Origin: a virus
Strand: one strand, 5' to 3'
Length of the DNA: 27,463 nucleotides
Virus record (IMG/VR): IMGVR_UViG_3300020467_000032
Location: 1 to 27,463 of that record
Part shown: piece by piece, positions 1,112 to 18,629 of the stretch
How positions within the stretch are numbered: the stretch's first letter is position 1
Layout of the letters: each line of letters opens with the position of its first letter
The notes under the pieces: generated by a model
Told to the model about the DNA's origin: nothing
The model's input: the letters and a program-made list of their open reading frames with translations, nothing else
The model's database searches: none
Made by a program: the position numbers and the translations under genes

Positions 1112-1436
1112 ACAGTACCAACGTGAGTGGGCAAGAAAACACGGGAAGACTAAAAGAATGAATCAACGTGGTCCTGAGAATAGACAGAAATTGGTTGATG
1201 ATGCCAAGTCAAATCCTTGTGTCTGTTGTAATATACAGTATCCTTTATGTGTGATGGATCTCCACCATGCAGACAACAGTGAGAAGCAAGTTAGTATTAC
1301 AGGCTTGACAAGAACAGGTCCATATGATAAATTAAAGGAGGAAGTAGATAAGTGTGTACCCCTTTGTGCCAATTGTCACAGAATGGTACATACAGGGATC
1401 AAGCAATTGCCTGATCTCATACTATTACCTAGGTGA
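1083..1436 (+). CDS. HNH endonuclease, probably a free-standing homing type
   Basis: The 117-residue protein has a basic N-terminus (residues 1-40, many Lys and Arg) and a zinc-type HNH core: C46-x2-C49, the DLHHAD segment with H61 and H62, then CVPLCANCHRMVH with C95-x2-C98, N97, H99 and H103. This is the order of an HNH fold in which paired cysteines hold a structural zinc and the DLHH/N/H residues bind the catalytic metal. Proteins of this size in T4-like phages are often homing endonucleases that cut a related phage genome lacking them. GAGG (1070-1073) nine bases upstream supports the start. The gene overlaps the charged ORF before it and ends immediately before the tmRNA acceptor piece, so it may be mobile together with its neighbours. 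Confidence 0.85.
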   Translation: MPIKDKEKNRQYQREWARKHGKTKRMNQRGPENRQKLVDDAKSNPCVCCNIQYPLCVMDLHHADNSEKQVSITGLTRTGPYDKLKEEVDKCVPLCANCHRMVHTGIKQLPDLILLPR

Positions 1437-1483
1437 CTTTACGAATAGGATCGGACAGGGGTTCAACTCCCCTCACCTCCACC
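1437..1483 (+). ncRNA. ssrA: Acceptor piece of the permuted tmRNA
   Basis: This is the half that would carry alanine. It starts somewhere after the HNH stop (1436), contains the P2 strand CGAATAGG, the stretch TCGGACAGGGGTTC, which is very like the E. coli tmRNA 3' region, the T-loop TTCAACT, the acceptor strand and ACC. The base after ACC is T, so the terminal CCA is not fully encoded and would need end trimming and CCA addition. Confidence 0.8.
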
Positions 1484-1583
1484 TTTGGCCATGGGGGTGA
1501 CTTGGTTTTGACGGTCTATTACGATTGTGACTGAAAGCTGCTTGCATAAGCAACCCATATCTGCAAAAACAGATAAACCTGCT

Positions 1584-1658
1584 GCGAATAACATCGTAGC
1601 ATTCTCACGTCCTGTCAAGGGTACAGTAGTTCGCTCACGTGAACTCGCTCTTGCATGA
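1584..1658 (+). other. tmRNA proteolysis-tag reading frame (24 encoded residues)
   Basis: From the resume codon GCG at 1584 the frame reads ANNIVAFSRPVKG, then TVV, then RSRELALA, ending at TGA 1656-1658. ANNIV followed by an aromatic and Ser/Ala-Arg is the start of cyanobacterial tags (typically about 15 residues ending APVAA). This tag shares the start but is longer and ends LALA, still a small apolar end of the kind ClpXP-type proteases recognise. The tmRNA-borne alanine would add one residue in front. Confidence 0.8.
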
Positions 1659-1708
1659 CCTTAAGGTGAGATCGGGGTTAAGTTAGCCTTGTTACCCAAG
1701 TAACTCAT

Positions 1709-1736
1709 GAGGGGTGAAATGCCCCTCTTTATTTTT
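1709..1736 (+). terminator. Rho-independent terminator of the tmRNA
   Basis: GAGGGG (1709-1714) and CCCCTC (1722-1727) form a 6-bp GC-rich stem with a 7-base loop, followed by TTTATTTTT (1728-1736). It sits just past the last tmRNA helices (GTTAC/GTAAC, 1690-1704) and ten bases before the oxygenase start, so it closes the tmRNA transcript and separates it from the next gene. Confidence 0.8.
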
Positions 1737-2402: not shown

Positions 2403-5400
2403 ATGGCTTTGACAAGACTTGACAATCTTATTAGTTCAAAAACTGGTAAGTATTTGTATGTGTCTCCTGATGATTTTAACGCATCAGATGAACTGAATAA
2501 TAGAGGTAATTCTCCTATTAGACCGTTCAGATCTCTTCAGAGAGCATTCATAGAAATTTCACGGTATTCTTACCAACCAGGTCCAGATAACGATAGGTTT
2601 GATCAATTCACTGTCATGGTAATGCCAGGTAAGCATTATATTGACAACAGACCAGGTCTTTTAAGTACTGAAGGAATTGATGAGTTTAGTTTTGATCAAG
2701 CAATGGGAGAATGGAATGATAATTCTATTCTAGACCTTAAGGATCCTAATAATATACTTTACAAGTTTAATAACAGCGAGGGTGGTGCTATTATCCCTCG
2801 TGGTTCTTCTATTATTGGTTATGATCTTCGCCGTACATCTGTCCATCCTCTCTACGTTCCTGATCCAGCTGATAATTTAGAGAAAAGATCTGCTATCTTT
2901 AATGTTACTGGTGGTTGTTACTTCTGGCAGTTTACCATCAGAGATGGTGATCTAGAGCCTTCTTCTCCATTATATGATGTTAATGAGGGTGTAGGTAAAG
3001 TTTATAATCAAACACCACCACCTGATAGTCCTGCTACTGCTTGGACTGAGTTAGCAGTACCTAATTTCTCTCACCACAAGCTTACTGTATTTGAATATGC
3101 AGATAAAGAAGAATTAGCAACATATTATCAGAAGATTGCTAAGGCATTCTCACAGTATCAACCTACTATTGATGATGCAAATGAGTTTAGTGATAGAATC
3201 CAAGAGACTAGAATTGTTGGACCTCTATCAGATATTCGTGCAATTGACAGTATTAAGTGTACTGATTCATCACCTGCTGGAACAATAACAGTTGAAGTAA
3301 CATCTAAAGTTAATCATGGTTACTTTAAGAATCAGTTTATTGCTATTGAGAATAATGGTCTTGATGAAGCCTTAGATGGCACATTCTCTATCAATGCTCT
3401 TGATTTGGTTGATAAGAGGAAGTTTACATATACTATTCCAGGAACTGTTGCTGCTCTTGGTACAACTACTAACCTTGTTAGTGGTACAACTTATACCGCA
3501 GCTAGTAGTCCAGCTTTAAGTCCAAATGCTGTAGTTAAGGCAGAGGTTGACTCTGTTGAATCTGCATCTCCATACGTATTCAACTGCTCCATTAGATCTA
3601 CATGGGGTATTTGTGGTATCTGGGCAAATGGTTTGAAAGCCACTGGTTTCAAATCAATGGTTATCGCTCAGTACACTGGTGTATCTCTACAGAAAGACGA
3701 TAGAGCATTCATCAGATATGATGAGTTTACAAATACATTCAATCAAGCATCTTTAACAGATGCATTTGCTACAGTTCCATATCATACTAAGGGTGATGCA
3801 TATTGGAAAGATGATTGGAGAAACTTCCACGTTCGTGCATCTGAAGACGCATTCATTCAGTGTGTTAGTATATTCGCTGTTGGTTATGCTGATCACTTCT
3901 TGATGGAGTCTGGTGGTGATATGAGTATCACCAACTCTAATAGTAACTTTGGTAATACATCACTACATGCTATAGGTCATAAAGGATATTCCTTTAACCA
4001 AGATAAGGGTGGATTTATTACTGATATTGTTCCACCTAAGACTGTTACTGAGGTAGGAAAGACTAAGAGACAATCTTATTATACTCTTGATGTTTATGCA
4101 TCAAATGATCAAGGAAATCATACTAAGATCTATCATGGTGATGATAGTGCATATGATCCAACCAAGCGTCCTGCTGCTACCATTAATGGTTATCGTATAG
4201 GTGCTAAGAATGATGATGAACTAAAGGTTAAACTTGCTCCAGTATCACCAGGATCAACTAATCTCTTTAGTGCTAAATTAAATCCTAGTGGATTTAAGAA
4301 GTTTACTGCTGCTGCGGATGTTCTTAATCCATCTGGTGTAACTATTAATAATAAAACTCTTGATGCTGCTGATTTAATTGAAGCAAATAAAGAGTTTATT
4401 GCACATGAATCATATGATCGTATTCTTGCTAAGTATCCAGCACTTAAGGTAAAGGAAACTATTACGATTGAGAAATGTCGTAGAGACGTTGGATATTTAA
4501 TTGATGCTACTGTTCAAGATTTAAGACTTGGTGGTAATGTTAATACTATTCAAGCTGCTGAATCTTATTACGTAGGTAACAATTTATCATATATTAATGA
4601 TGAATTAACTGAGACTCTAGAAGGTTACAATTATGCTAGAGACTTGGCAATTGCTGCAATGCGTAACTTCACGTATTTGCGTACAGGTGTTGAAACAACT
4701 AATGGATCTGCTTTAGTTGATATTGGTGATACCAGTGGTGTTGTAGAAGGTATGACAGTTGCTGATTATGATCCATCTATGTTTAATGATGGAAAACTAA
4801 ACAGTAATGCTCAAAGACCAACAACTCCTGTAATTCCTAACAATACATTTGTTAAACGTGTTGTTGACTCAACAACTATTGAGTTGGGTGATAACACACA
4901 GACAGCAGAGAAGAAATTTGTATCTGGTCGTTTTGGTGATGCACGTGCATTAATTCTTAATAATAAGACATTTATTGCAACAGAAGCATATGAGAGAATG
5001 CTTCTTGATTATCCTAACTATACACCTTCTACTGGTTATGATGCTGTTACAGGTAAAGCAAAGTGTATTGATGATCTTTCAAAAGCAATTGATGCAGTTG
5101 CTGAGAACGTAGGTTATGGTGGTAATGCTGAGACATGGGATGCTGCATATTATTATGATAGTGGTTCAGTTGTTGATTTAGCAGCTAAGAAGCAAGAAAC
5201 AATTGATGCATTTAATTATTGTAAAGACATGGCCATTCAGGTCATGCGTAAGGAGAAAGTATTTGTTTATGGTTCACATGGTTTAACACAGTCATATACT
5301 ACATCTAATGATCCTGTTGCAACAGATCAAGCAGAATTAGTTAATGATAGAAATGGTGATGCACGTAATTTAATCCTTGCTAATAGAAATTTAATTGCTA

Positions 5401-8400
5401 ATGAAGCTGTTGAGAGAATGATTCTCACTTCTTCAACACAGCAGTTTACTCCTAATCAGAATACCACATATAATGCACAGACAGGTGAGTTAACTGTTGG
5501 GTCAGTTGGTCATAATATGTCTGCTGCTACTAGTCATACAGTAACAGATGCGACTTATACTGCTGCTACTGGTAAATTAGTATTAACTATTCCTAATAAT
5601 AACTTTACTAATGGTCAAAGAATTTTAATTAAGGATAATTCATTGTCACTTAAGTGTGCAATGGATAATAATACTTCTACTAAGACATATCCACGTGCAA
5701 CTGATCCTGTAAGTGGTAAGTGGTTGACTATTACTAATGTTAATACTGCTAATAATACATTTGAAGTTAATGTTGGTAAGTCACCTTTAAGATATTTTAC
5801 ACCAACTGCTGCTACATATGATCCTAGCACAGGTTTAATGACCTTGACAATTGGAAATCATGGATTGAAAGCAGGAACAAGTATTAAACTTGCTCAAGAA
5901 TCTTTGAAGTTTAGTTGTGGATTTAATGGTGCTACTGGTACTGCTGCTCAGAAATCATATCCTAGAGCTACAGACCCATTCCATGATACAGCAATTAACA
6001 TTGAGTCTGTTACTGTTGACACAATTACATTACAGGTTCTAACAACTATACCTTCTACTAATACTGATGCTCATACATTTGTGAGTGCTCTTGGTGATGC
6101 TGTTATTGCTGGTGGTGATTATGTTCACCAGTATGAGGATGCTGCTAATGATGGTGTATTAGCAGAAAATGATAGTGTTAGAATTGATTATAATTCATTG
6201 ACATTCACATGTGGAATGGATTCTGATCGTACAGAACACCAGTATCCTCGTTTAGGTGATCCAGCAGCTAATTCTGTATTACCTATTGTATCAAAGACTA
6301 ATGATGCATTTACAGTTAATGTTGGTAAATCATTAGCAGTATCACATGATGTAACTAATGCATCATATAATACAGCAACTGGTGATCTTGATTTAACTAT
6401 TAATGATCATGATTTAAAAGTAGGACAGAGTATTAGAATAGGAACAGATTCTCTGTCATTTAAATGTACTCAGGATAATAACCAAGCTACAAAGACATAT
6501 CCAAGAGCAGATGTAACTACACATACAGTTACTGCTGGTACAGGAGTAGTTGATGTTACTGATGCTACTTATGATGCTGCAACTGGTTTGATGGTTTTGA
6601 CCATTGGTGCTGGTCACGGTTTAGATGTTGGTGATCAAGTTAAGATTGCTGGTAATTCATTGTCATTCACATGTGCAATGGATGGTGGCACTTCAACCAA
6701 GACATATCCACGTCCAACAGATCCTATTTGGGATACCACAACTCCTATTACTGCTAAGGATGCAACAACAATTACAATTAATGTTGGTCAATCACCTCTT
6801 GTAAATCATCAGGTTACCTTTGCTGATTATGATCCGTCAACTGGAGATATGGAGTTGACAATTGGTGTTAATCATGGATTAACTGTTGGTGAAAGTATCA
6901 GACTTGCTGATGATGCAATAACATTTAGTTGTCTTGCTGCTGTTGGTGAGCACAAATACGTTGGTGGTACTGTTCCTAATGGAGTTACTATTAATGGTAC
7001 ACCAGAGACATTCTATGATGCTGATTATGAACCCACAACAGGTATATTAACAGTAAATATTGGTTCTCATGCTTATAGTGTAGGATCAACAGTTCAGTTT
7101 TCTGCTGGTGCAGTTAAGTTTACTTGTGATGCTGACAACCATGCTACTCAGCATGATTATCCACGTGCAACTGACCCTGCTAACAATCCTGTAACTATTA
7201 CATCTGTAACTGCTGATGCATTTACAGTTAATGTTGGTATAGCGTCAAGTAATAATCAGAGTTCATATCCTCGTGCAACAGGTGCTAATACTACTAGTGG
7301 TAAGGACTATGCATATCAGAATGCTCTACCAATAACAAAAGTACTCGGTCAAAAGATTACAGTAAATGTTAATGGTGGACAGGGAGCAATTAGTGTAGGT
7401 TCTGCTCACACTTATGTAACGGCTGCTGCTGATGCTGTAGTTTCTGGTGGTAACTATGCTCATACATGGGCTGGTGGTACTGCTACTGGTGCTGTTATTC
7501 CTGGTGGTACTGCTGAATTAACTTATTATGATCCAAACTCAGGAAACTTAACATTATATGTTGAGAATCATGGATTTGAAATAGATGATCTAGTTAAGAT
7601 TGTTGACGAATCGTTATCATTTAGTTGTGGTTTTGGTGGTGCTAGTGGTGGTGCTGCTACTAAAGCATACCCTCGTGTAAGTGATCCAATTAGTAATAAG
7701 TATATTGCAATTACACATGTAACTCCTAATACATTTACAATTCCAGTTTTAGATACTATACCTTCAACTAATACTGATCCACATACTTTTGTAAGTGCTA
7801 CTCCTAATGGTGTTGTAAGAAGAATTGATAGAGCATATCAAAATGCTTTACCAATTAAGAAAGTAAGTAGTTCTTTTTACACCTCAACTGGTGCAACATA
7901 TGATACTGCAACAGGTGAACTTGTAGTTACTGTTCCTAATCATGGAATTGCTAATGGACAGAGAATTAAGATTGCTCCAGATTCATTAACATTTAAATGT
8001 GAGATGGATGGAAAAGCAACAGAGCATACTTATCCTAGAACATCTGATCCTACATTTGGTAAGTGGTTAAGTGTTACTGATGCAGACACAAATACATTTA
8101 AAGTTAATGTTGAATCTGCTGGTGCTAATAAAACATTTACCCCAGGACCATTGAGTACATATGACCCTTCAAGTGGAGATTTAGTACTTGATATTGGAGC
8201 TGATCATGGATTAACTACAGGTGAAAGTATTGTTGTTGATAATGATGCAATTTCATTCACATGTACGATGGATGGTAATAAGACTGCTATGTCTTATCCT
8301 CGTGCAGGAAAAGATAAGGCATCTGGTAGATCTTTAAAAATTAAATCTGTAACTGGTACAAGTATAACAATTAATGTTGGTAGTGCTGGTACTAATAAGT

Positions 8401-11400
8401 TCTTTAAACCTACAACAGCAACATATACTGAAACAAATGGCGATCTTGTTTTAACAGTTGGACAGCACGGAATGCGTGTTGGTGATAAGGTAATTCTAAA
8501 AAATAATTCGCTGAAATTTACGTGTTCAAAAGACGCAAATGCTACTGAACACACATATCCTCGTGTTGGTACTGATCCTTGGGCTGAGAAATCAATAGCA
8601 ATTACTCATGTTGGATCTACTAGTCATACTATAACAAATGCTGATTATAGTTCTGCTACTGGTAAGATAGTTCTTACAGTTCCAAATAATACTTTTGTTG
8701 AAGGTGATTACATTAAGATTGCTGATGATTCACTTAAGTTTACTTGTGATTTAGGATCTGGAATTAAGTCATATCCACGTGCAGGATTTGATCATCCAAG
8801 TGGACGTTGGTTAAGGATTTCTAATGTAGATTCAAATGCTGATACATTTGAAATAAATGTAGGACTTTCTAGTCATACAGGTGCTCATGTATTCTCATCT
8901 GCTAATCCTAATGGTCTTGCAAGACAAGATGGAACATTTAAGATTAATGTTGGATTTGATGGAAGTGCTGCGAATCAATACCCACATACTTTTGTAAGTG
9001 CTATTAATGATGCAATTGAATTCTTACCAGAATCTCCTCATACATTTGATGGTTCACAACCAGATAGTATTAAATTCTTACCACAGAGTGTTCATGAGTG
9101 GGTTAGATCATCTACTAATGGTATTGAGAAACAAAATGGTATTATTACTGTTAATGTTGGAGCTTCAGGTCCAGCAGATCAGTATGCTCATACATGGGCT
9201 GGTGGTACTGCTACTGGTGCTGTAACTAGTGGTGGACAGTATGGTCATCAGTTTAAACGTGCTGAAGTTGATTCAGTTCATAAGACATTCTCTATTGCTG
9301 GTAATAGAACTTATCATAAACAGGATTGTGTTGATGATGTTGTAGATCTATTAGGAGCAATTGCTGATAACGTAGCATACGGTGGTAACGATAAGACATG
9401 GGATGCTGCATACTCATATAAGACTGGTGCTCATGTTGCTGGTGAAGAGACAGAGACTAATAGAGTATTTGAACATGCCAAACAAATGGCTGCTCAGGTT
9501 ATTAAGAATCAGAAGATTCTTCCTATTGGTTCTCATGGTTTACTTCAGACATATGATACATCAATTACAAAAGATACTGATGATGCTACACCAAATGCAA
9601 ATGGTGATGCATATAATTTAATTCATTCAAATGCTGATTTAATTGCTAATGAAGCATATGCAAGAATGATTCTTAATAATCCTGGATTCTTACCTCCTAC
9701 TGGTAACTCACAGGATTGTGTTGATGATATTAAAGATTTCATTACCGAAATTGCATATAACGTAGCATTTGGTGGTAATGATCGTGTCTGGGATATGGCA
9801 AATCTTTATGTAACAGGTGCTCATGTTGCTGGTGAAGAAGCACAGACACTTGCTGCATTTACTGATGCTACTGAATTAACGATTCAAGCAATGAGAAATG
9901 AAAAGATTCTCATTATTGGTACACATGGTAAGACTCAGACATATGATACTACTATTACTCAAGGTGTTGCAAATCCACAGGATAATAAAGTTGCCGATGC
10001 ATTTACTTTAATCACTACTAATAAGAATTTTATTGCTGAAGTTGCTTTGGGTAGAATGACTACTCAGTATCCTGGTTATACTTGGCAGAGTGGTTATACT
10101 TCTGTTGATTGTCTTGATGATCTTAAGGATGTTGTAGATGTTGTTGCTCATAACTTAAGGTATGGTGGTAATGATAGAGTGTGGGATGCTGCTAACATGT
10201 ATGTTGCTGGTGCTCATGCTGCTGGATCAGAAAATGAAACTGTTTATGCATTTAATCAAGTACGTGATATTATAAAAGAAGTTGCTACTAATGTAACTGT
10301 TACTGTTGGAAATACTACACCAACAGCAGCTCAGCAGAAAGACACTACAATTACTGATGGTGTAACTACAGGAGAATGTGCTACTACATTAAGTGCTGTT
10401 GATACATTAGTTCTTATCTTAACTAATACTATTACAACACCAGCATCACTTGTTGATGTTCCACGTACTGCTGCAACATTTAGATGTTCTAGTGTAGAAT
10501 CTACAATTAATACTCTTTCTACAATTGCTAAGAATGCTATTTCAGATCCTACAAGTCTTGCTGGTAGTAAAGAAACTGTATCTGACGCTTCCTATAATGA
10601 GACAACTGGTGATTTAACTCTTACTATTGGAACTCATGATTATGAGGTTGGTGAGATAGTTCATATTCCTACAGAGACAATAGTATTCAATTGTACTAAG
10701 GATAACCAAGCAACTAATCACGCATATCCTCGTGCAACTGATCCTATATCATCAACACCTCCTACAGTTACTGCTGTATCTGGTACAACTATTACTGTTA
10801 ATGTTGGAGCAGCAGCTGTTTCAGATCAGTATGATCATACTTATGTAAGAGCAGATGAGCAAATACAAGTTGGTGGTGTTGGTAGAACTAGATCTGATGG
10901 TAATTGTAATGATGTAAGAGCAACTATTGATACACTATTCAAGATTGTTAAGAATACTATAACTATACCATCATCTCTTGATAATATAACAAGAACTGTA
11001 TCTAATGGTCCTTGTCAGAATGTTGCTTCAGCAGCTACAACATTGTTTGGTATTATTACAGGAACTATACAGACTGTTGGATATCTTGATACGATTGAGA
11101 GAAATTCTTCTCCAACGGGATTATCTACGGGTAATGCTGTAAATTCTAATGCAAGTAGTACTAATACATATCTCTACTTCACTTTAACTTCTGGACGTTA
11201 TACTTCAAATTATAGTCCTAAACCTGATGATACCATTACTCAGAGTACAGTGTATCCTCAGTGTGCCAGTGTAGCAACTGCTGTTCGTCAGTATTTTTCA
11301 AATATTACTACGATTATTCAGACAGGTCTTAATACTGTTCCAAGAACTCAACCTTCTGCTACATCTGATCTTTCACAGAGAGCAACGCTATGGACTCTTG

Positions 11401-14400
11401 ATAATTGGACTCCAGGACCATTGACAGGATCTAATCCTCATCAGTTAGAAACTGGAACTCCCGTAAGATTGGTTCCAAGACCCCGTTATGACAAATCAAC
11501 TAATAAGTATGTTGAAGTTGATAAGCGTAATGTAAGACTTCCTAATGGATTTAGTCCTAATGAATTATATTATGTTATTGCTCCTGGTAGAGTAACAAAA
11601 CCAGAGAATTATGGTAATCAGACAGCATTTAATGGTACACAAACTAGGAAGTTAATGCTTGCAAGTAGTAAGACTAATGCTGCTGCTGGTATATACATTC
11701 ACTCTGCTGAAGTTGAAGCAATACATCCAGATGTTGAGATTGATGTATATCAATTTGTTCTAGATGGTCAATATGATTTACATCAATACTCTTCTGAACT
11801 TACAAGTTCAGTAAGTGGTGGTATTGAGACTGATGTTCCACATATATTTGATGTACAAAATGCTACTGTTGAACCACATAAAGTATTCTTTAGAAAGAAT
11901 ATTGGTGGATCATTACCAGAGGTAGGTGGTGCTAATGCTAATGATACAGCAATTGTTGATTCTAATAACAGAATATTAGGAAATAGATTTTTCTTTGCAA
12001 GGTATATAAATGCTAAGGTATTTACTATACACAAGTCACATAATGGTGCAATCAATAATACTGAACTAATTGAGTTTGTTCCTCTTCAATCAGGAAAGTA
12101 TAACTTCTCAGTATTTGCTGATAAGCGTGAGTCACCTATGAAGTATGACCCAACTTATCAGAATCCAGGTACTACACCACCTATATTTGGTAAGTGGTAT
12201 TTACAGGTTAAGGATGAGTCTTCCGTAGGTAGTAATGCATATAGAACAGATAGTATTCTTAAGAGATTCCATGATTCTACTTACAATGATCAATCTGGTA
12301 ATAATAAGACCAATGATTCTTGGTTTGAAAGGATTGATGATGATAGAACAGCAGATGATCGTATCTATCGTTTCCGTTATGTAATTCCTAAGTATTTGAA
12401 GTCTGTTCGTGATCCGTTGAATGGATTCACAATCAAGATGAGGAAGGATGATACAAGAAAACTTCTTCCACAGAAATTGAAATTGAAGCAGGTAAGTGGA
12501 ACTGTAACTAAGGCGAAGTTCTATAATACCACAGATAGTGGAAACTCTAATGAAATTATTGGATATACTGATTCTGATTTCTCAACTCAGGGTATTGAGA
12601 AACAAAGTGCTGCTGGTGAGAATATATTCTATGATCCATATAAGAAGGATACTAAGGGAACTAAGAGCTTTACTAGAGTTATTGAGACAGAGAACTACGT
12701 TTCAATGTCTGTTCAGTCTGGTAGATATTATACCGAAGGTAGTGACGAGTTCTTAGAACTAACTGTATTCAACCACGGTATTACTAATATCGGATTGAAG
12801 AATGAAATTCTTACAACTGTTAAGATTACTGCACCTCAAGGTGGTAGTTTCACAGCAGATAAGACAGGATATGCTGGAACATATAGTGCATCATCAGCAG
12901 TAACATGGGATGGTAATTCTGAAGGTTCAGGTTATATTCATGCTGTATTACAAGTTCCTGGAACTACTGAGTGGCACTTAATTCTTAAGGGTGTTACTGG
13001 TAAAATTGATTACTCTGCAACTGATAATATTAGATTTAGTCAGGGTACAGTATTTGCTGATCTTATATCACACACAGACTATGGTAAGTCACTTGTACTT
13101 AAGGATCTTATTAAGGAAGAATTACCAGAATACTATTACAGACAAAATGGAGCAAAGGTTTATACCGCAACTCCTGGTGATATTATTACTGATGCTGATA
13201 ACAAACAGTTCTATATTGAATCTGTAGAAGATGTTGGTGAGATTGATGATACATTCTATATCTTTAATGTTGAGGAGATCCAAAGACGTATCTTTGATCA
13301 GCAAGATGGTATATTCTACATTACTGCTTTACGTGGTAATGTTTCACCATACCCACAAGGTGCTGGTAACCAGAAGAACTTCCATAACTTTAAGTTCTCT
13401 CAGCCCGTTAGCAAATTATATCCATTAAATTATAAGAATGATCCAGTATGGTTCAAACAGGTTGATCCTAATGCTGTTGATCCTCCTGCAACATATTCTG
13501 CTGCTGACAACTATATTCATGGTTTAGTTACAGTTAATGACTTTAAGGGTTCAACTACTAAAGAATCTGTAACTGATTTCCTTAAGACTGAAGCATTAAA
13601 GAATAACGAATACACCAACACAACTGTTGATACTTCTGGAGATATTGTTGATAATAGAATCATAGCACAAGATGGTAATGCTTCATCTGGTGCTGAAGAT
13701 CGTATTATTCCTATTGCTGGTGATAACAAAGTTGTTGTTGATCAGAGACTATATGTTGAACTTAGACGACCATCTATAGCACGTGCTGGTAACCATACGT
13801 TTGAATACCTTGGTTTTGGTCCAGGTAACTACTCAACTGGTCTACCTGCAAGACAAGAAGTTATTCTTACTACAACTCAAGACTTCTATTCTCAGTCTAA
13901 GAAGGAAGATGGTGGTTTAGTATTCTACACTGGTCTTAACTCTAATGGTGACCTATACATTGGTAACCGTAAGATTGATGCTATCACTGGTGAAGAAGAA
14001 TTCCTAGAGTCTGCAACACTTGTTGATTCTGCTGATGAGGATGATGTAGTTGATAGTCTTGTTACAACCTTTGATACTGCTGTTACATTCAATGAGTATA
14101 TCACAGTTAATGGTGGTGAAGCACAAGATAAGACAAGCACATTTAATTCACCTGTAACTATTAATGTTCCATCAACAGTTAGAGATGGTACTTTAGGTGT
14201 TCCTGGTATTGGTATTCTAACTTCACTTAAGGTAACTTCTCTAGTTTCTAATACTAAGGATGATGGTTCTTTAGATAGAACAGCAATGACGAAGAATCGT
14301 CAGACTGGTGGTGATATTATAATTGCTGGTAATAGAATTACTGCTGGTGTATTCCAGTGGAACCAACGTGGTTCTGATGGTACAGGACAAGGATATAAGA

Positions 14401-17400
14401 TTCAAACTCATATCACTGGAACTGCTGGTCTAGCATCTAACGTAACTCCAGATCAAGATGCTACTTATAGTAATAATCAGATTGTTGCTTATGGTGCTGC
14501 TGGTGGACCTAGAACAGGTGACATGTTACTCAAGGGTAAGCAAGTCGGTGGTTCTGGATCTCTTGGTTGGATTCTTGCTAATCAATTTGCTGATGTAGAA
14601 TCTAAGATAGAGAAACTTGTTTATAACAATAATAGTACTGTAATAGTTCAGTTAAAGACTGGTATTACAAACGATAATATTATTGCTGGTGGTATTTCAT
14701 CTGGAATGGAAGTTAAGATTGGTGGACATACCGATTCTGAAGTTAATGGAACATGGCAGATTAATGCTGGATTTGTTTCTTCTGGTAGTACATTTAATAT
14801 TAGTCTAGATCCAAGTTCTTCTCCTAGTGGAGAGAATGTTTGGGCAACGCAACCTGGTGGTGCAACATTTGAAATTGCTTCTTCTTCTTGGAAGGAATGG
14901 GGTGTACTTGGTGCTCAAGCATTTAGAACTAATACCCAAAAAATTGGTGAATTTAAGGTTGGTATCAACACTGTAGCACGTTCTGCACATGACGCATACA
15001 TAAATGCATTTGTTTCTGATGAGACAGATCCACGTGCTAATTTAGATGTCGTTGGTACAGTATTTGTTAGTGGTAAGACTATTCAATCTTATGCAAATAA
15101 TTCTACTGTAACTAAGACAGAGACTAACGAAGATAATGCATTCTTGGTTGGTGGTAATAGTATAAGTCCTAACAGTGTAGCAACATTTAGAGTTTCTACT
15201 ACAAATAGTGGCAGGGTTGGTATTAATACTAACCTTGGAAATATGAACAGTACCTTAACTGTTACTGGAACATCTGAGTTCACTGATGATGCTGTATTCC
15301 AAGAGGATGTTGCAATCAATGGTGGTGGTACTGGTAGTACTAAGGCTGCTGATATAACAACAGAAATTAGTGATGGTACAGTTAATCTCTTTATGACTGG
15401 AACCTTTAAAGGTCTTACAACTGGAGCACGACCAACTCAAGGTTTAAAGGTTGCTGGTGATGCACAGAATATTGAACTTGGTAATGTAACAACAGGTATT
15501 CAGAATATCAAGATTGGTAATACCAGTACTGATAGTCAGATAACAATTGGTGCTACTGTTGATGGTTCTGGTTCCAATGCATCTAGAAATGTTATTGGTG
15601 GTGCATATGCTAGTGATGAAACTAAGTCAGTAACTCAAATTGATACTAAGGTATTATCTGTTGCTGGTGATATAAGATTTGGACAAACTATTGATCCTAA
15701 CACTGGTAGTGTAGTTTCACCAGCATTGAGAGGTGCAGGTGCTTTTGTTAACTTTGATTCTAGTTCTGAGACATTTAATTTCTTATCTGGTAATAGTACC
15801 ACAAGTATACTTAACTTTGCTTTAAATGCGTCTGATATTACAATTGGTTCTCAGGGTGGTGACACAACAATTAGAAATAATCTAACTGTTGATGCTACTA
15901 GCACATTTAACTCTACACTGAAGTTATGTGGTGGTTATGCTAACTACTCATTCACTGGATACAGAGCACAGTCAGGATCTTCACTTAAGGCACATACTGC
16001 TTCTAGTGGTACTAATCCATCAAGAACTGTTGATATTATTAATGTTCTTGCATATGCTCCTAACATAGGAGATGGTAGATATAATAGATTTGACGAAGGT
16101 GGTTCTGGTGATTGGGGTAATGCTTCATGGAGTAATGAGATAACTACAGGTATTCCTGCTGGTGATCCTACATTACCTGCACTACCTGCTGGTGAGTTCT
16201 ATCTTCCATTGAAGTGGAAGCCAGTAGATCAAAATGGAGATCTTTGGTTCAATGTTAATGATATTTTATTGTTAGATACTGTTGAACAATCCAATAGACA
16301 TTCTGAATTTGTTAAGGTTGCTGGTCTTCCACGTGTTGCTAGTGCTCCATATTATATTAGTGTAACAAGACAACCATTTGGTGATCTTAATACAACACTT
16401 CCTGTTCAGAATTCTACTGATGGTCATGAAGATGAGACTGCTATTTACAAGTGTACAGTACAGTATGATTCTACTTGGTTGACTCAATCAATTAATGCAA
16501 CTGGTACTGAAGCAGATGTTTATCTTGCTCAGTTTGGTGGTGTTTTAATTGGTCGTGAATCTAGACAAAGTTCTACTAAGACTAATGCACAAGGACAGAT
16601 TGTTGCTAACCCACAATTTGTTGATGTAAATGCTCCAGGTGATTATGTACTTCTTTCACGTGATGATAGTACAAATCCAGATACAGGTGAAATCTTAGAA
16701 CTTAAGACTACACTTATTGAGACTGCTAAGAAGTTTATCATTAGAAATGGATGTTCTGGTGCTGCTGGTGAAGAAGATGTCTTTGTTGTAGATTCTGTAA
16801 CTGGTAAGGTGACTATTGTTGGTGACCAAGAGATAACTGGATCTCTCACAGTTAATGGTAAGTGTGCTACACCATATGTTAATGATCTTGCAAATAGAAA
16901 GTTAACTATTAATAATGGATCTGGTATCACTACATTTGAAGTTGATACTTGTACTGGTGATACTGTTATTGGTAATACACATGCAACAGTATTCATGCTT
17001 GCCGAGCAATTCGGAACAGCTCCTGCTGCATATACTAAGGGTAGTGATAAGGTTTACTCATATAGGCATGATCCTCTATCAATTCAGACAACTGGTCCTA
17101 AGACAACTATTGGTGCTAATACAGCTGCTGTTGATACCAATATTCAAATTGCTGGAAATCATCTTGCATTTGCTACTGGTGATTTGGTCGCAATATATGT
17201 TGATGACACAGCAACAGTTCCTGGTAAGATTGAGATTATTCAGTTAACTGATGCTCCATATGAAGGAACTGGTTCTAATGCTGGTAAGTACTTCTTACCT
17301 ACTGGTTCTAATTCAACATATCCTAATGGTGGTAGAGGTGTAGAAGATACAACAGCAACAACTTGGTCAGCAGGTGATAATGTTGTTGTTTTAATTCCTA

Positions 17401-18629
17401 TGGGAGAAACAACATTATTACGTGATATACCTGCTACACGTGATGCTAGAAAGAACGATACAACTCTTAAAGCAAGAACACCTAACCAGAGTGATATTAG
17501 ATTAGAGATTCCATTGAAGGATGGAGATATTATTGCTCCAAAACTTGATTATCTTACCTATGTGAGAATAGGAACAGAGTGGTTTAGACCTGATAGTGTT
17601 CATGGTGGTAATATTTGGAATCCTACTGCTGGTCTGGATCCAGATGGTGCAGTTAAGAAACCTAAGAGTTACAGGTCAGGTGCAAACACTAGTGGAGATC
17701 CAATAATAGATCTATACAATGGTGGTAAGACTACTATCCATGATGATTTGGAAATCCATAGTGGTGTCCTTAGAATGTATGGTTCTGATGGCAAGACACT
17801 GATTGCTTCTATTGCTAATGATGATGGTCACGTTGGTGATGGAGCAGTTAATGATCCTAAGATCAATAAAGCAGGTTTGACTGTTAAGGGTGAAGGTAAC
17901 TTCTATAGTGATCTTAAAGTTTATTATGAATCATGTATTGGTACTGGATTATGTTCTACTGATACTCAGTTTAAAGTTACTGCATTTGACGGTAGTGTTG
18001 ACCTCGGATACAAGTATTATCAGGAGGGTAAACTTAGTGTAGCACCTGACGAAACTGATGCTATATTCCATATTGATAATCTTGGTGGTGCTGGTACTGG
18101 TACAGAAGGTCCAAAAGACTTCAAGATTTATCAGAGTAATGCTATTGACTCGTTTGGTATTGAGAAGTATTGGACTGCTGGTGGTGGTAGAAGATATACA
18201 TATGTTCAGTTTGATTCTGGTCAAGGTATTGGACAGCAACAAACTAATCCGTTGAAGATTAACCAGAACTACTTAATTAATGTTACTAGTGGAAATAATA
18301 TAATATTATATCTTCCAGATGATGCACAGACAGGTGATATGATTAGGTTTATTGAACTTTCTGGTAACTTAACTTATAACACAAGTCTTGTTATAAGAGC
18401 TAAGAAGGTAAATAATACAGCAGTTCCTATTCAAGGTGACTCCAGTGGGTCCACTATAGCAGCTGGTCAGGGTGCAACCGATCCTCTTTGGGATTCAGGT
18501 GAACTAATTGTTCAAACAAGGAATGCATCGTTTGGTCTTGTTTATGTCGGAACAGTAGATATTGAAGGATCTACAGAAACACAAACAATTCCATCTTCTC
18601 TAAGAGGATGGTGGTTACAGGAGTTATAA
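2403..18629 (+). CDS. Giant modular virion structural protein (5408 residues)
   Basis: One uninterrupted frame of 16.2 kb. The N-terminus (MALTRLDNLISSKTGKYLYV, then PIRPFRSLQRAFIEISRYSY) resembles the start of large structural proteins in cyanomyoviruses, and the first 620 residues look like a Gly/Ser/Thr-rich beta-structure. Next come alpha-helical repeats of about 110-120 residues (from about residue 647 to 2630), interrupted by about twelve beta modules of 80 residues (1013-2290), then five Cys-containing helical repeats (2657-2980). Residues 3000-3880 are not assigned. From about 3880 the chain has short strands of the type SLTVNG, TLTVTGTSEF and NLTVDATSTF, as in trimeric fibre shafts, and it ends IPSSLRGWWLQEL. 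Position before three collar proteins suggests a distal tail, fibre or baseplate component. AGGA eight bases upstream supports the start. Exact virion role is unknown. Confidence 0.85.
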   Translation: MALTRLDNLISSKTGKYLYVSPDDFNASDELNNRGNSPIRPFRSLQRAFIEISRYSYQPGPDNDRFDQFTVMVMPGKHYIDNRPGLLSTEGIDEFSFDQAMGEWNDNSILDLKDPNNILYKFNNSEGGAIIPRGSSIIGYDLRRTSVHPLYVPDPADNLEKRSAIFNVTGGCYFWQFTIRDGDLEPSSPLYDVNEGVGKVYNQTPPPDSPATAWTELAVPNFSHHKLTVFEYADKEELATYYQKIAKAFSQYQPTIDDANEFSDRIQETRIVGPLSDIRAIDSIKCTDSSPAGTITVEVTSKVNHGYFKNQFIAIENNGLDEALDGTFSINALDLVDKRKFTYTIPGTVAALGTTTNLVSGTTYTAASSPALSPNAVVKAEVDSVESASPYVFNCSIRSTWGICGIWANGLKATGFKSMVIAQYTGVSLQKDDRAFIRYDEFTNTFNQASLTDAFATVPYHTKGDAYWKDDWRNFHVRASEDAFIQCVSIFAVGYADHFLMESGGDMSITNSNSNFGNTSLHAIGHKGYSFNQDKGGFITDIVPPKTVTEVGKTKRQSYYTLDVYASNDQGNHTKIYHGDDSAYDPTKRPAATINGYRIGAKNDDELKVKLAPVSPGSTNLFSAKLNPSGFKKFTAAADVLNPSGVTINNKTLDAADLIEANKEFIAHESYDRILAKYPALKVKETITIEKCRRDVGYLIDATVQDLRLGGNVNTIQAAESYYVGNNLSYINDELTETLEGYNYARDLAIAAMRNFTYLRTGVETTNGSALVDIGDTSGVVEGMTVADYDPSMFNDGKLNSNAQRPTTPVIPNNTFVKRVVDSTTIELGDNTQTAEKKFVSGRFGDARALILNNKTFIATEAYERMLLDYPNYTPSTGYDAVTGKAKCIDDLSKAIDAVAENVGYGGNAETWDAAYYYDSGSVVDLAAKKQETIDAFNYCKDMAIQVMRKEKVFVYGSHGLTQSYTTSNDPVATDQAELVNDRNGDARNLILANRNLIANEAVERMILTSSTQQFTPNQNTTYNAQTGELTVGSVGHNMSAATSHTVTDATYTAATGKLVLTIPNNNFTNGQRILIKDNSLSLKCAMDNNTSTKTYPRATDPVSGKWLTITNVNTANNTFEVNVGKSPLRYFTPTAATYDPSTGLMTLTIGNHGLKAGTSIKLAQESLKFSCGFNGATGTAAQKSYPRATDPFHDTAINIESVTVDTITLQVLTTIPSTNTDAHTFVSALGDAVIAGGDYVHQYEDAANDGVLAENDSVRIDYNSLTFTCGMDSDRTEHQYPRLGDPAANSVLPIVSKTNDAFTVNVGKSLAVSHDVTNASYNTATGDLDLTINDHDLKVGQSIRIGTDSLSFKCTQDNNQATKTYPRADVTTHTVTAGTGVVDVTDATYDAATGLMVLTIGAGHGLDVGDQVKIAGNSLSFTCAMDGGTSTKTYPRPTDPIWDTTTPITAKDATTITINVGQSPLVNHQVTFADYDPSTGDMELTIGVNHGLTVGESIRLADDAITFSCLAAVGEHKYVGGTVPNGVTINGTPETFYDADYEPTTGILTVNIGSHAYSVGSTVQFSAGAVKFTCDADNHATQHDYPRATDPANNPVTITSVTADAFTVNVGIASSNNQSSYPRATGANTTSGKDYAYQNALPITKVLGQKITVNVNGGQGAISVGSAHTYVTAAADAVVSGGNYAHTWAGGTATGAVIPGGTAELTYYDPNSGNLTLYVENHGFEIDDLVKIVDESLSFSCGFGGASGGAATKAYPRVSDPISNKYIAITHVTPNTFTIPVLDTIPSTNTDPHTFVSATPNGVVRRIDRAYQNALPIKKVSSSFYTSTGATYDTATGELVVTVPNHGIANGQRIKIAPDSLTFKCEMDGKATEHTYPRTSDPTFGKWLSVTDADTNTFKVNVESAGANKTFTPGPLSTYDPSSGDLVLDIGADHGLTTGESIVVDNDAISFTCTMDGNKTAMSYPRAGKDKASGRSLKIKSVTGTSITINVGSAGTNKFFKPTTATYTETNGDLVLTVGQHGMRVGDKVILKNNSLKFTCSKDANATEHTYPRVGTDPWAEKSIAITHVGSTSHTITNADYSSATGKIVLTVPNNTFVEGDYIKIADDSLKFTCDLGSGIKSYPRAGFDHPSGRWLRISNVDSNADTFEINVGLSSHTGAHVFSSANPNGLARQDGTFKINVGFDGSAANQYPHTFVSAINDAIEFLPESPHTFDGSQPDSIKFLPQSVHEWVRSSTNGIEKQNGIITVNVGASGPADQYAHTWAGGTATGAVTSGGQYGHQFKRAEVDSVHKTFSIAGNRTYHKQDCVDDVVDLLGAIADNVAYGGNDKTWDAAYSYKTGAHVAGEETETNRVFEHAKQMAAQVIKNQKILPIGSHGLLQTYDTSITKDTDDATPNANGDAYNLIHSNADLIANEAYARMILNNPGFLPPTGNSQDCVDDIKDFITEIAYNVAFGGNDRVWDMANLYVTGAHVAGEEAQTLAAFTDATELTIQAMRNEKILIIGTHGKTQTYDTTITQGVANPQDNKVADAFTLITTNKNFIAEVALGRMTTQYPGYTWQSGYTSVDCLDDLKDVVDVVAHNLRYGGNDRVWDAANMYVAGAHAAGSENETVYAFNQVRDIIKEVATNVTVTVGNTTPTAAQQKDTTITDGVTTGECATTLSAVDTLVLILTNTITTPASLVDVPRTAATFRCSSVESTINTLSTIAKNAISDPTSLAGSKETVSDASYNETTGDLTLTIGTHDYEVGEIVHIPTETIVFNCTKDNQATNHAYPRATDPISSTPPTVTAVSGTTITVNVGAAAVSDQYDHTYVRADEQIQVGGVGRTRSDGNCNDVRATIDTLFKIVKNTITIPSSLDNITRTVSNGPCQNVASAATTLFGIITGTIQTVGYLDTIERNSSPTGLSTGNAVNSNASSTNTYLYFTLTSGRYTSNYSPKPDDTITQSTVYPQCASVATAVRQYFSNITTIIQTGLNTVPRTQPSATSDLSQRATLWTLDNWTPGPLTGSNPHQLETGTPVRLVPRPRYDKSTNKYVEVDKRNVRLPNGFSPNELYYVIAPGRVTKPENYGNQTAFNGTQTRKLMLASSKTNAAAGIYIHSAEVEAIHPDVEIDVYQFVLDGQYDLHQYSSELTSSVSGGIETDVPHIFDVQNATVEPHKVFFRKNIGGSLPEVGGANANDTAIVDSNNRILGNRFFFARYINAKVFTIHKSHNGAINNTELIEFVPLQSGKYNFSVFADKRESPMKYDPTYQNPGTTPPIFGKWYLQVKDESSVGSNAYRTDSILKRFHDSTYNDQSGNNKTNDSWFERIDDDRTADDRIYRFRYVIPKYLKSVRDPLNGFTIKMRKDDTRKLLPQKLKLKQVSGTVTKAKFYNTTDSGNSNEIIGYTDSDFSTQGIEKQSAAGENIFYDPYKKDTKGTKSFTRVIETENYVSMSVQSGRYYTEGSDEFLELTVFNHGITNIGLKNEILTTVKITAPQGGSFTADKTGYAGTYSASSAVTWDGNSEGSGYIHAVLQVPGTTEWHLILKGVTGKIDYSATDNIRFSQGTVFADLISHTDYGKSLVLKDLIKEELPEYYYRQNGAKVYTATPGDIITDADNKQFYIESVEDVGEIDDTFYIFNVEEIQRRIFDQQDGIFYITALRGNVSPYPQGAGNQKNFHNFKFSQPVSKLYPLNYKNDPVWFKQVDPNAVDPPATYSAADNYIHGLVTVNDFKGSTTKESVTDFLKTEALKNNEYTNTTVDTSGDIVDNRIIAQDGNASSGAEDRIIPIAGDNKVVVDQRLYVELRRPSIARAGNHTFEYLGFGPGNYSTGLPARQEVILTTTQDFYSQSKKEDGGLVFYTGLNSNGDLYIGNRKIDAITGEEEFLESATLVDSADEDDVVDSLVTTFDTAVTFNEYITVNGGEAQDKTSTFNSPVTINVPSTVRDGTLGVPGIGILTSLKVTSLVSNTKDDGSLDRTAMTKNRQTGGDIIIAGNRITAGVFQWNQRGSDGTGQGYKIQTHITGTAGLASNVTPDQDATYSNNQIVAYGAAGGPRTGDMLLKGKQVGGSGSLGWILANQFADVESKIEKLVYNNNSTVIVQLKTGITNDNIIAGGISSGMEVKIGGHTDSEVNGTWQINAGFVSSGSTFNISLDPSSSPSGENVWATQPGGATFEIASSSWKEWGVLGAQAFRTNTQKIGEFKVGINTVARSAHDAYINAFVSDETDPRANLDVVGTVFVSGKTIQSYANNSTVTKTETNEDNAFLVGGNSISPNSVATFRVSTTNSGRVGINTNLGNMNSTLTVTGTSEFTDDAVFQEDVAINGGGTGSTKAADITTEISDGTVNLFMTGTFKGLTTGARPTQGLKVAGDAQNIELGNVTTGIQNIKIGNTSTDSQITIGATVDGSGSNASRNVIGGAYASDETKSVTQIDTKVLSVAGDIRFGQTIDPNTGSVVSPALRGAGAFVNFDSSSETFNFLSGNSTTSILNFALNASDITIGSQGGDTTIRNNLTVDATSTFNSTLKLCGGYANYSFTGYRAQSGSSLKAHTASSGTNPSRTVDIINVLAYAPNIGDGRYNRFDEGGSGDWGNASWSNEITTGIPAGDPTLPALPAGEFYLPLKWKPVDQNGDLWFNVNDILLLDTVEQSNRHSEFVKVAGLPRVASAPYYISVTRQPFGDLNTTLPVQNSTDGHEDETAIYKCTVQYDSTWLTQSINATGTEADVYLAQFGGVLIGRESRQSSTKTNAQGQIVANPQFVDVNAPGDYVLLSRDDSTNPDTGEILELKTTLIETAKKFIIRNGCSGAAGEEDVFVVDSVTGKVTIVGDQEITGSLTVNGKCATPYVNDLANRKLTINNGSGITTFEVDTCTGDTVIGNTHATVFMLAEQFGTAPAAYTKGSDKVYSYRHDPLSIQTTGPKTTIGANTAAVDTNIQIAGNHLAFATGDLVAIYVDDTATVPGKIEIIQLTDAPYEGTGSNAGKYFLPTGSNSTYPNGGRGVEDTTATTWSAGDNVVVLIPMGETTLLRDIPATRDARKNDTTLKARTPNQSDIRLEIPLKDGDIIAPKLDYLTYVRIGTEWFRPDSVHGGNIWNPTAGLDPDGAVKKPKSYRSGANTSGDPIIDLYNGGKTTIHDDLEIHSGVLRMYGSDGKTLIASIANDDGHVGDGAVNDPKINKAGLTVKGEGNFYSDLKVYYESCIGTGLCSTDTQFKVTAFDGSVDLGYKYYQEGKLSVAPDETDAIFHIDNLGGAGTGTEGPKDFKIYQSNAIDSFGIEKYWTAGGGRRYTYVQFDSGQGIGQQQTNPLKINQNYLINVTSGNNIILYLPDDAQTGDMIRFIELSGNLTYNTSLVIRAKKVNNTAVPIQGDSSGSTIAAGQGATDPLWDSGELIVQTRNASFGLVYVGTVDIEGSTETQTIPSSLRGWWLQEL
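7455..7495 (+). repeat. First copy of a 41-base exact direct repeat
   Basis: Identical to 9183-9223, 1728 bases (576 codons) apart and in frame; it encodes YAHTWAGGTATGAV. Exact identity at synonymous positions over 41 bases stands out against the diverged modules around it. Confidence 0.85.
9183..9223 (+). repeat. Second copy of the 41-base exact direct repeat
   Basis: Identical to 7455-7495 in the same reading frame, in the linker near the end of the beta-module array. Suggests recent copying or homologous exchange within the gene. Confidence 0.85.
10372..11345 (+). repeat. Five short Cys-containing helical repeats
   Basis: Units of about 35 residues start with GEC, FRC, GNC, GPC and PQC, and continue as xxVxxxIxTLxxIxxNxIxxPxSLxxxxRT. 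They lie near 10372, 10480, 10900, 11010 and 11256. The thirteenth beta module sits between the second and third units. Confidence 0.65.

Follow-up and report, generated by a model that had tools for sequence, protein, structure and literature searches.

A cyanobacterial-type permuted two-piece tmRNA gene on a viral contig, and how its phage lineage differs from host genes

Cyanobacterial tmRNA consists of two molecules, as Northern blots revealed for the host RNA (PMC1242208), and the two-piece genes of this type (Prochlorococcus and Synechococcus ssrA) are described by the Rfam family RF01851. Phage-borne permuted two-piece tmRNAs, cyanophage ones included, were published in 2022 (PMC9004378), and hence the gene analyzed here is not new in kind. 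It shares with the tmRNAs of Melnitz and other marine phages in that work the permuted order and the marine phage setting, and the cyanophage copies were grouped there with cyanobacteria, whereas the Melnitz tmRNA is of an alphaproteobacterial type with a glutamine riboswitch. A text search of PMC9004378 found the tag sequence and the spacer content undiscussed. Two further systems are close. A nominally archaeal gene has an intact tRNA-Ala in the spacer of a permuted tmRNA, which the 2025 tmRNA database paper presents as a unique feature among 97,179 (PMC11915505). Mycobacteriophage DS6A carries a tmRNA derivative reduced to the tRNA-like domain, and such a molecule inhibits tmRNA (PMC4131195, PMC11915505); DS6A is without a tag frame, whereas the cyanophages keep theirs.

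The gene described below has in common with cyanobacterial tmRNA the permuted order, the G3.U70 pair, P2, the ANNIV-FSR tag core and the 3′ stems. It differs from the host genes in its tag and in a hairpin at the resume codon, and it belongs to a separate group on the tree. What is new is how the phage lineage differs from the hosts, namely by tag divergence, the resume hairpin and tRNA genes nested recurrently in the spacers of relatives; we found no description of these features in the open-access literature searched, outside which most subscription papers lie. The phage lineage varies naturally in just those parts that distinguish the release of ribosomes from the degradation of proteins.

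Anatomy and genome setting of the tmRNA gene

The window, that is, the whole stretch of DNA analyzed, is the 27,463-nt virus record IMGVR_UViG_3300020467_000032. Its gene content (tail-fibre, tail-collar, tail assembly chaperone, CpeT-like and 2OG-oxygenase genes) is consistent with a T4-like cyanophage. All features given below lie on the + strand. A sequence-only reading of this DNA had proposed a phage-borne permuted two-piece tmRNA of the picocyanobacterial type and a covariance-model check, and the models bear it out. With cmscan, RF01851 (cyano_tmRNA) matched positions 1411-1725 with 104.0 bits (gathering score 70; E 2.1e-27) and RF04321 (tmRNA_permuted) matched 1432-1604 with 74.8 bits (gathering score 47; E 7e-13), both over the full model length, and ARAGORN called a permuted tmRNA at 1390-1749. 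Homologues were found on at least about 140 viral contigs, and at least 105 copies of the same type in cyanobacterial genomes. We conclude that the feature is a cyano-type permuted two-piece tmRNA.

The acceptor half precedes the coding half. Sequence, covariance models and ARAGORN place the acceptor RNA core (P2 3′ strand, T-arm and 3′ acceptor strand) at 1432-1481, with the acceptor strand CACCTCC at 1474-1480 followed by the discriminator A1481; CCA is incompletely encoded (ACC-T). An 11-nt spacer, CCTTTGGCCAT (1482-1492), is expected to be removed. The coding RNA (1493-1725) then provides the 5′ acceptor strand GGGGGUG (1493-1499, from G1493), the P2 5′ strand, the tag frame and the 3′ stems. 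Halves and spacer are located as first proposed, and the piece ends predicted at that time (1481-1483 and 1493) match those derived here. All seven pairs of the acceptor stem close, including G3.U70, the alanine identity pair (G1495 with U1478), the T-arm is intact, and P2 closes with one irregular position, earlier described as a bulged A. The G3.U70 pair is present in every phage copy, and across the phage set covariation links the two halves at acceptor pairs 5, 6 and 7. A 5′ hairpin that belongs to the host model is missing from the acceptor half of the window, where the alignment has a gap. Co-folding of the two pieces gave the acceptor stem and the T-arm; as proof of two-piece pairing its energy is weak, since it only modestly beats mononucleotide shuffles (z -2.0), and hence the covariance models and the comparative pairing carry the weight. 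Downstream, the stem UCUCAC (1603-1608)/GUGAGA (1666-1671), which is UCUCCC/GGGAGA in relatives, closes the tag-tail loop, and the probable 3′ end of the coding RNA is a GC-rich, terminator-like hairpin with a T run behind it (1709-1735).

The tmRNA gene is preceded by an HNH endonuclease ORF (1083-1436; phrog_3106, E 2e-26), whose 3′ end overlaps it, and is followed by the 2OG-oxygenase gene and, further downstream, by a giant 16-kb tail-fibre gene (2403-18629; phrog_4527/529). The latter is a conserved neighbour: a homologue of its N-terminus was found in at least 58 tmRNA loci, the window among them. In S-CAM1 and S-CAM3 the tmRNA instead adjoins tRNA-Arg and tRNA-Val. The longest ORF call, 1707-2330, begins within the tmRNA; ATG 1746 is the more likely start of the 2OG-oxygenase gene. 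A T4-type late promoter immediately 5′ of the tmRNA was rejected, with no + strand match from the window start up to the tmRNA; on that strand ATAAATA first comes at 2361, ahead of the fibre gene. Matches to sigma-70-like promoters were no more frequent than expected by chance. Closely related HNH genes are upstream of the tmRNA in the window and in contigs L346, L362, L013, L051 and L056, and downstream of it in L355, L098, L126, L347 and L115; it is possible that homing spreads the tmRNA. The HNH stop codon of the window (1434-1436) falls within the tmRNA gene, so that a non-stop HNH mRNA could result from maturation of the tmRNA.

Relatives, spacers and separation from host genes

Viral contigs, genome contigs and a phage collection were sampled. 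The phages with homologues include, by name, S-SSM7, S-SSM6a, S-CAM1, S-CAM3, Sf-FS3, S-CRM01 and AG-345-P14. In S-SSM7 (L003:3982-4200; SSSM7_025) and Sf-FS3 (L002:4233-4442) ORFs annotated as hypothetical proteins overlap the tmRNA, which is itself unannotated. Most of the permuted tmRNAs on contigs L363-L461 have AND...LAA tags and 70-95 nt spacers with inverted-repeat ends, and form a separate, non-cyanobacterial group. Another non-cyanobacterial permuted tmRNA (L338:3723-4244) has the tag GKTINMVERPQELRLAA and a 229-nt spacer, within which ARAGORN calls a tRNA-Met adjoining the coding half.

A tree was built by a quick method from 110 distinct phage and 97 distinct host sequences, its 251 columns giving limited detail; the spacer, the N-terminal extension of the tag and the tag tail were left out. 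The phage versus host label changes once on this tree, with all 110 phage sequences on one side, and the split has a support of 97 in a 155-row tree. No repeated recent captures from hosts were seen among the sampled sequences, and recent host capture is rejected for this sample. Since phages and hosts separate at one branch, the phage tmRNA is an old lineage, and a capture from a host, if there was one, happened long ago and probably once; the tree being unrooted, the direction of capture is what we infer. The sequence-only reading had considered the gene probably taken from a host and kept. That suggestion has to be qualified, in that such a capture would be old and probably single, the sample showing no recent uptake.

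The window spacer carries no tRNA, and its shortness is not a phage-specific trait, because hosts have 5-7 nt spacers too. At the same position, at least 25 cyanophage contigs (L016, L017, L032, L046, L048, L056, L061, L062, L064, L071, L072, L078, L089, L102, L105, L109, L118, L122, L271, L306, L354, L356, L357, L452 and L459) have a complete tRNA gene, either tRNA-Tyr(GTA) or tRNA-Asn(GTT), with a few bases on either side, compared with the single tRNA-Ala case of PMC11915505. No nested tRNA was found in a named isolate among the matches listed. S-CAM1 and L048 are 94.6% identical outside the spacer, which is 5 nt in the former and 88 nt, with tRNA-Tyr, in the latter. An assembly artefact is unlikely, given this near-identical gene with an empty spacer and junctions that recur across contigs and samples. 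The tree implies 11 changes of this trait, a number that weakly supported branches may inflate, and several different tRNA sequences are involved. An uncut RNA is hard to reconcile with a nested tRNA gene; the tRNAs of the relatives, which are not part of the window's own gene, thus support processing and link tmRNA maturation to tRNA processing. The gene closest to that of the window among the matches listed (L346:5774-6336) has a 220-nt spacer composed of repeated short hairpins (TTAGTATTC...AATACTC).

Probable role and the divergent tag

It is likely that the phage tmRNA is cut into two and charged with alanine, and that in infected cells it serves SmpB-dependent ribosome rescue and adds a modified tag. 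In the proposed mechanism, host tRNA-processing enzymes would cut the transcript near 1481 and 1493, and the acceptor and coding RNAs would remain joined via the acceptor stem and P2. The RNA would be charged through G3.U70 and, with host SmpB, would release ribosomes stalled on broken messages. Translation would resume at GCA 1563 and a 31-residue tag would be appended; this tag would retain the cyanobacterial core ANNIVAFSR, with an N-terminal stretch added and the tail LALA in place of VAA, and the changed tail would probably alter the efficiency with which host proteases remove the tagged proteins. Neither SmpB nor ClpP, for which controls were positive, had a match in 12 large related phage records carrying tmRNA, so phage-encoded versions were discarded and host factors should serve; host SmpB is presumed to be present. 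The host also supplies its own tmRNA, which makes a benefit to the phage less certain. In E. coli, a plaque assay of tmRNA revealed that the tag function is not critical and that low tmRNA activity suffices (PMC2481249), which fits a changed phage tail. Ribosome recycling and redirection of tagged proteins, the two roles first suggested for this gene, would both fit.

The tag frame, AKTDKPAANNIVAFSRPVKGTVVRSRELALA (1563-1658), runs from the resume codon GCA (1563-1565) to the stop codon TGA (1656-1658), and is supported by ARAGORN, by an A at position -4 and by third-position bias in the tail. It probably encodes 31 residues ending in LALA, and the host-equivalent tag begins at the core ANNIVAFSR (1584-1610), common to cyanobacterial tags. 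Host tags have 16 residues counted from ANNIV or ANKIV and end in VAA or IAA (105 of 105 among the matches listed), whereas phage tags cover the equivalent span with 14-25 residues and have the endings LATA, TVAA, LVTA, TALV, PVAA, LATV, LVAA, LALA and others; the tag of S-CAM1, for example, ends in SRSTVAA and that of S-SSM7 in RTDELVTA. The window gene falls outside the host tmRNA subgroup, in that its tag is longer and ends in LALA and in that phage and host genes separate, although tmRNA as such is not defined by a 16-residue VAA/IAA tag. In close pairs of the copies with a 7-codon extension, tag-tail differences numbered 62 at third codon positions versus 19 and 15 at the others, counts from pairs that are not independent and to which RNA structure may contribute. 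The nonsynonymous/synonymous ratio of the tail was 0.27, versus 0.68 and 0.81 in flanking non-coding 45-nt controls. This third-position bias suggests that the phage tag is probably translated. The ratio for the tag core (0.06) was set aside as evidence, since the search patterns had fixed most of the core bases.

A stronger form of the favored explanation, compatible with it, is that the altered tail diverts tagged proteins to a different protease or shields them from degradation, so that ribosomes are freed without the usual proteolysis. We regard this as possible, at somewhat less than even chance. The last two tag residues changed 25 times on the phage tree (length 11.6) and never on the host tree (length 4.4), where about nine changes would be expected at the phage rate. 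Most cyanophage tails depart from VAA and yet stay small or hydrophobic, the last residue being A or V in 84 of 84 distinct frames. Tail divergence is not a general phage habit, since the AA ending is kept in 58 of 64 distinct tags of other-type permuted phage tmRNAs, versus 18 of 64 in cyanophages. Furthermore, a change from LAA to AAV slows degradation in E. coli (PMC9382460). However, a degron under relaxed constraint would give a similar picture, and the 12 phage records offer no ClpP of their own. With one tag ending in hosts, and phages that conserve the ribosome-facing parts and vary the tag, the lineage offers a way to test which function a phage needs.

The resume site and its hairpin

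In most phage copies the first GCN is separated from the ANNIV codons by 18-21 additional bases, always in whole codons. An A at -4 of the first GCN (A1559 in the window) was present in 29 of 29 aligned regions; the equivalent A86 is essential in E. coli (PMC2481249). Since GCA 1563 has this A and lies ~11 nt past the preceding helix, whereas the alternative, GCG 1584, has a U at -4, we take the former as the likely resume codon. The N-terminal extension has a nonsynonymous/synonymous ratio of 0.64, close to the controls, and this weak protein-level constraint makes its translation less certain.

A predicted hairpin, AUCUG (1559-1563)/CAGAU (1570-1574), takes up both this A and the resume codon's G, its two strands being positions -4 to 0 and +7 to +11. 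It is present in most cyanophage copies. At least four contiguous pairs were found in 49 of 49 distinct phage regions, versus 1.7% of shuffles and 0 of 18 distinct host regions. Among 29 distinct rows 94.5% of the cells pair, although these stem from few independent events. Compensatory changes on both sides were observed in three of the five pairs (GC/UA, AU/CG, UA/CG), and the covariation score was 0.357, versus 0.084 for shuffled and at most 0.152 for slid alignments. A conserved hairpin on the resume codon challenges the usual view that resumption needs an open site. Pairing of 85-90 with 95-100 has been proposed to close access to the resume site in the A86C mutant of E. coli (PMC2481249); given the resemblance, the phage RNA could tag weakly or conditionally. 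More tentatively, cyanophages may have re-engineered trans-translation as a whole, with a hairpin that slows or conditions tagging, a tail that alters protein fate and, in some lineages, a tRNA delivered from the spacer; infected cells would then recycle ribosomes by phage-set rules.

The same hairpin could be read differently, as part of an inhibitor that binds host SmpB, AlaRS or stalled ribosomes, tags poorly because its resume codon is sequestered, and so dampens trans-translation. Its placement, like that of the pairing proposed to be inhibitory in A86C, and the precedent of DS6A speak for such a decoy. However, a pure decoy needs neither an open tag frame nor a tail with third-position bias, and the cyanophage copies did not lose the frame as DS6A did; we therefore consider it unlikely. 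A non-functional passenger, whether a host gene that drifts in the phage after capture or what remains of an integration into ssrA, is very improbable: host genes are only distantly similar and the acceptor type GGGGTAT/ATTCTCC of relatives (4 copies) has a mismatch, but most relatives do not show the lost pairing and lost frame that it would predict, and more than 100 contigs have the gene, whose covarying stems, tag frame, T-arm and identity elements persist where the tree adds up to 11.6 changes per column.
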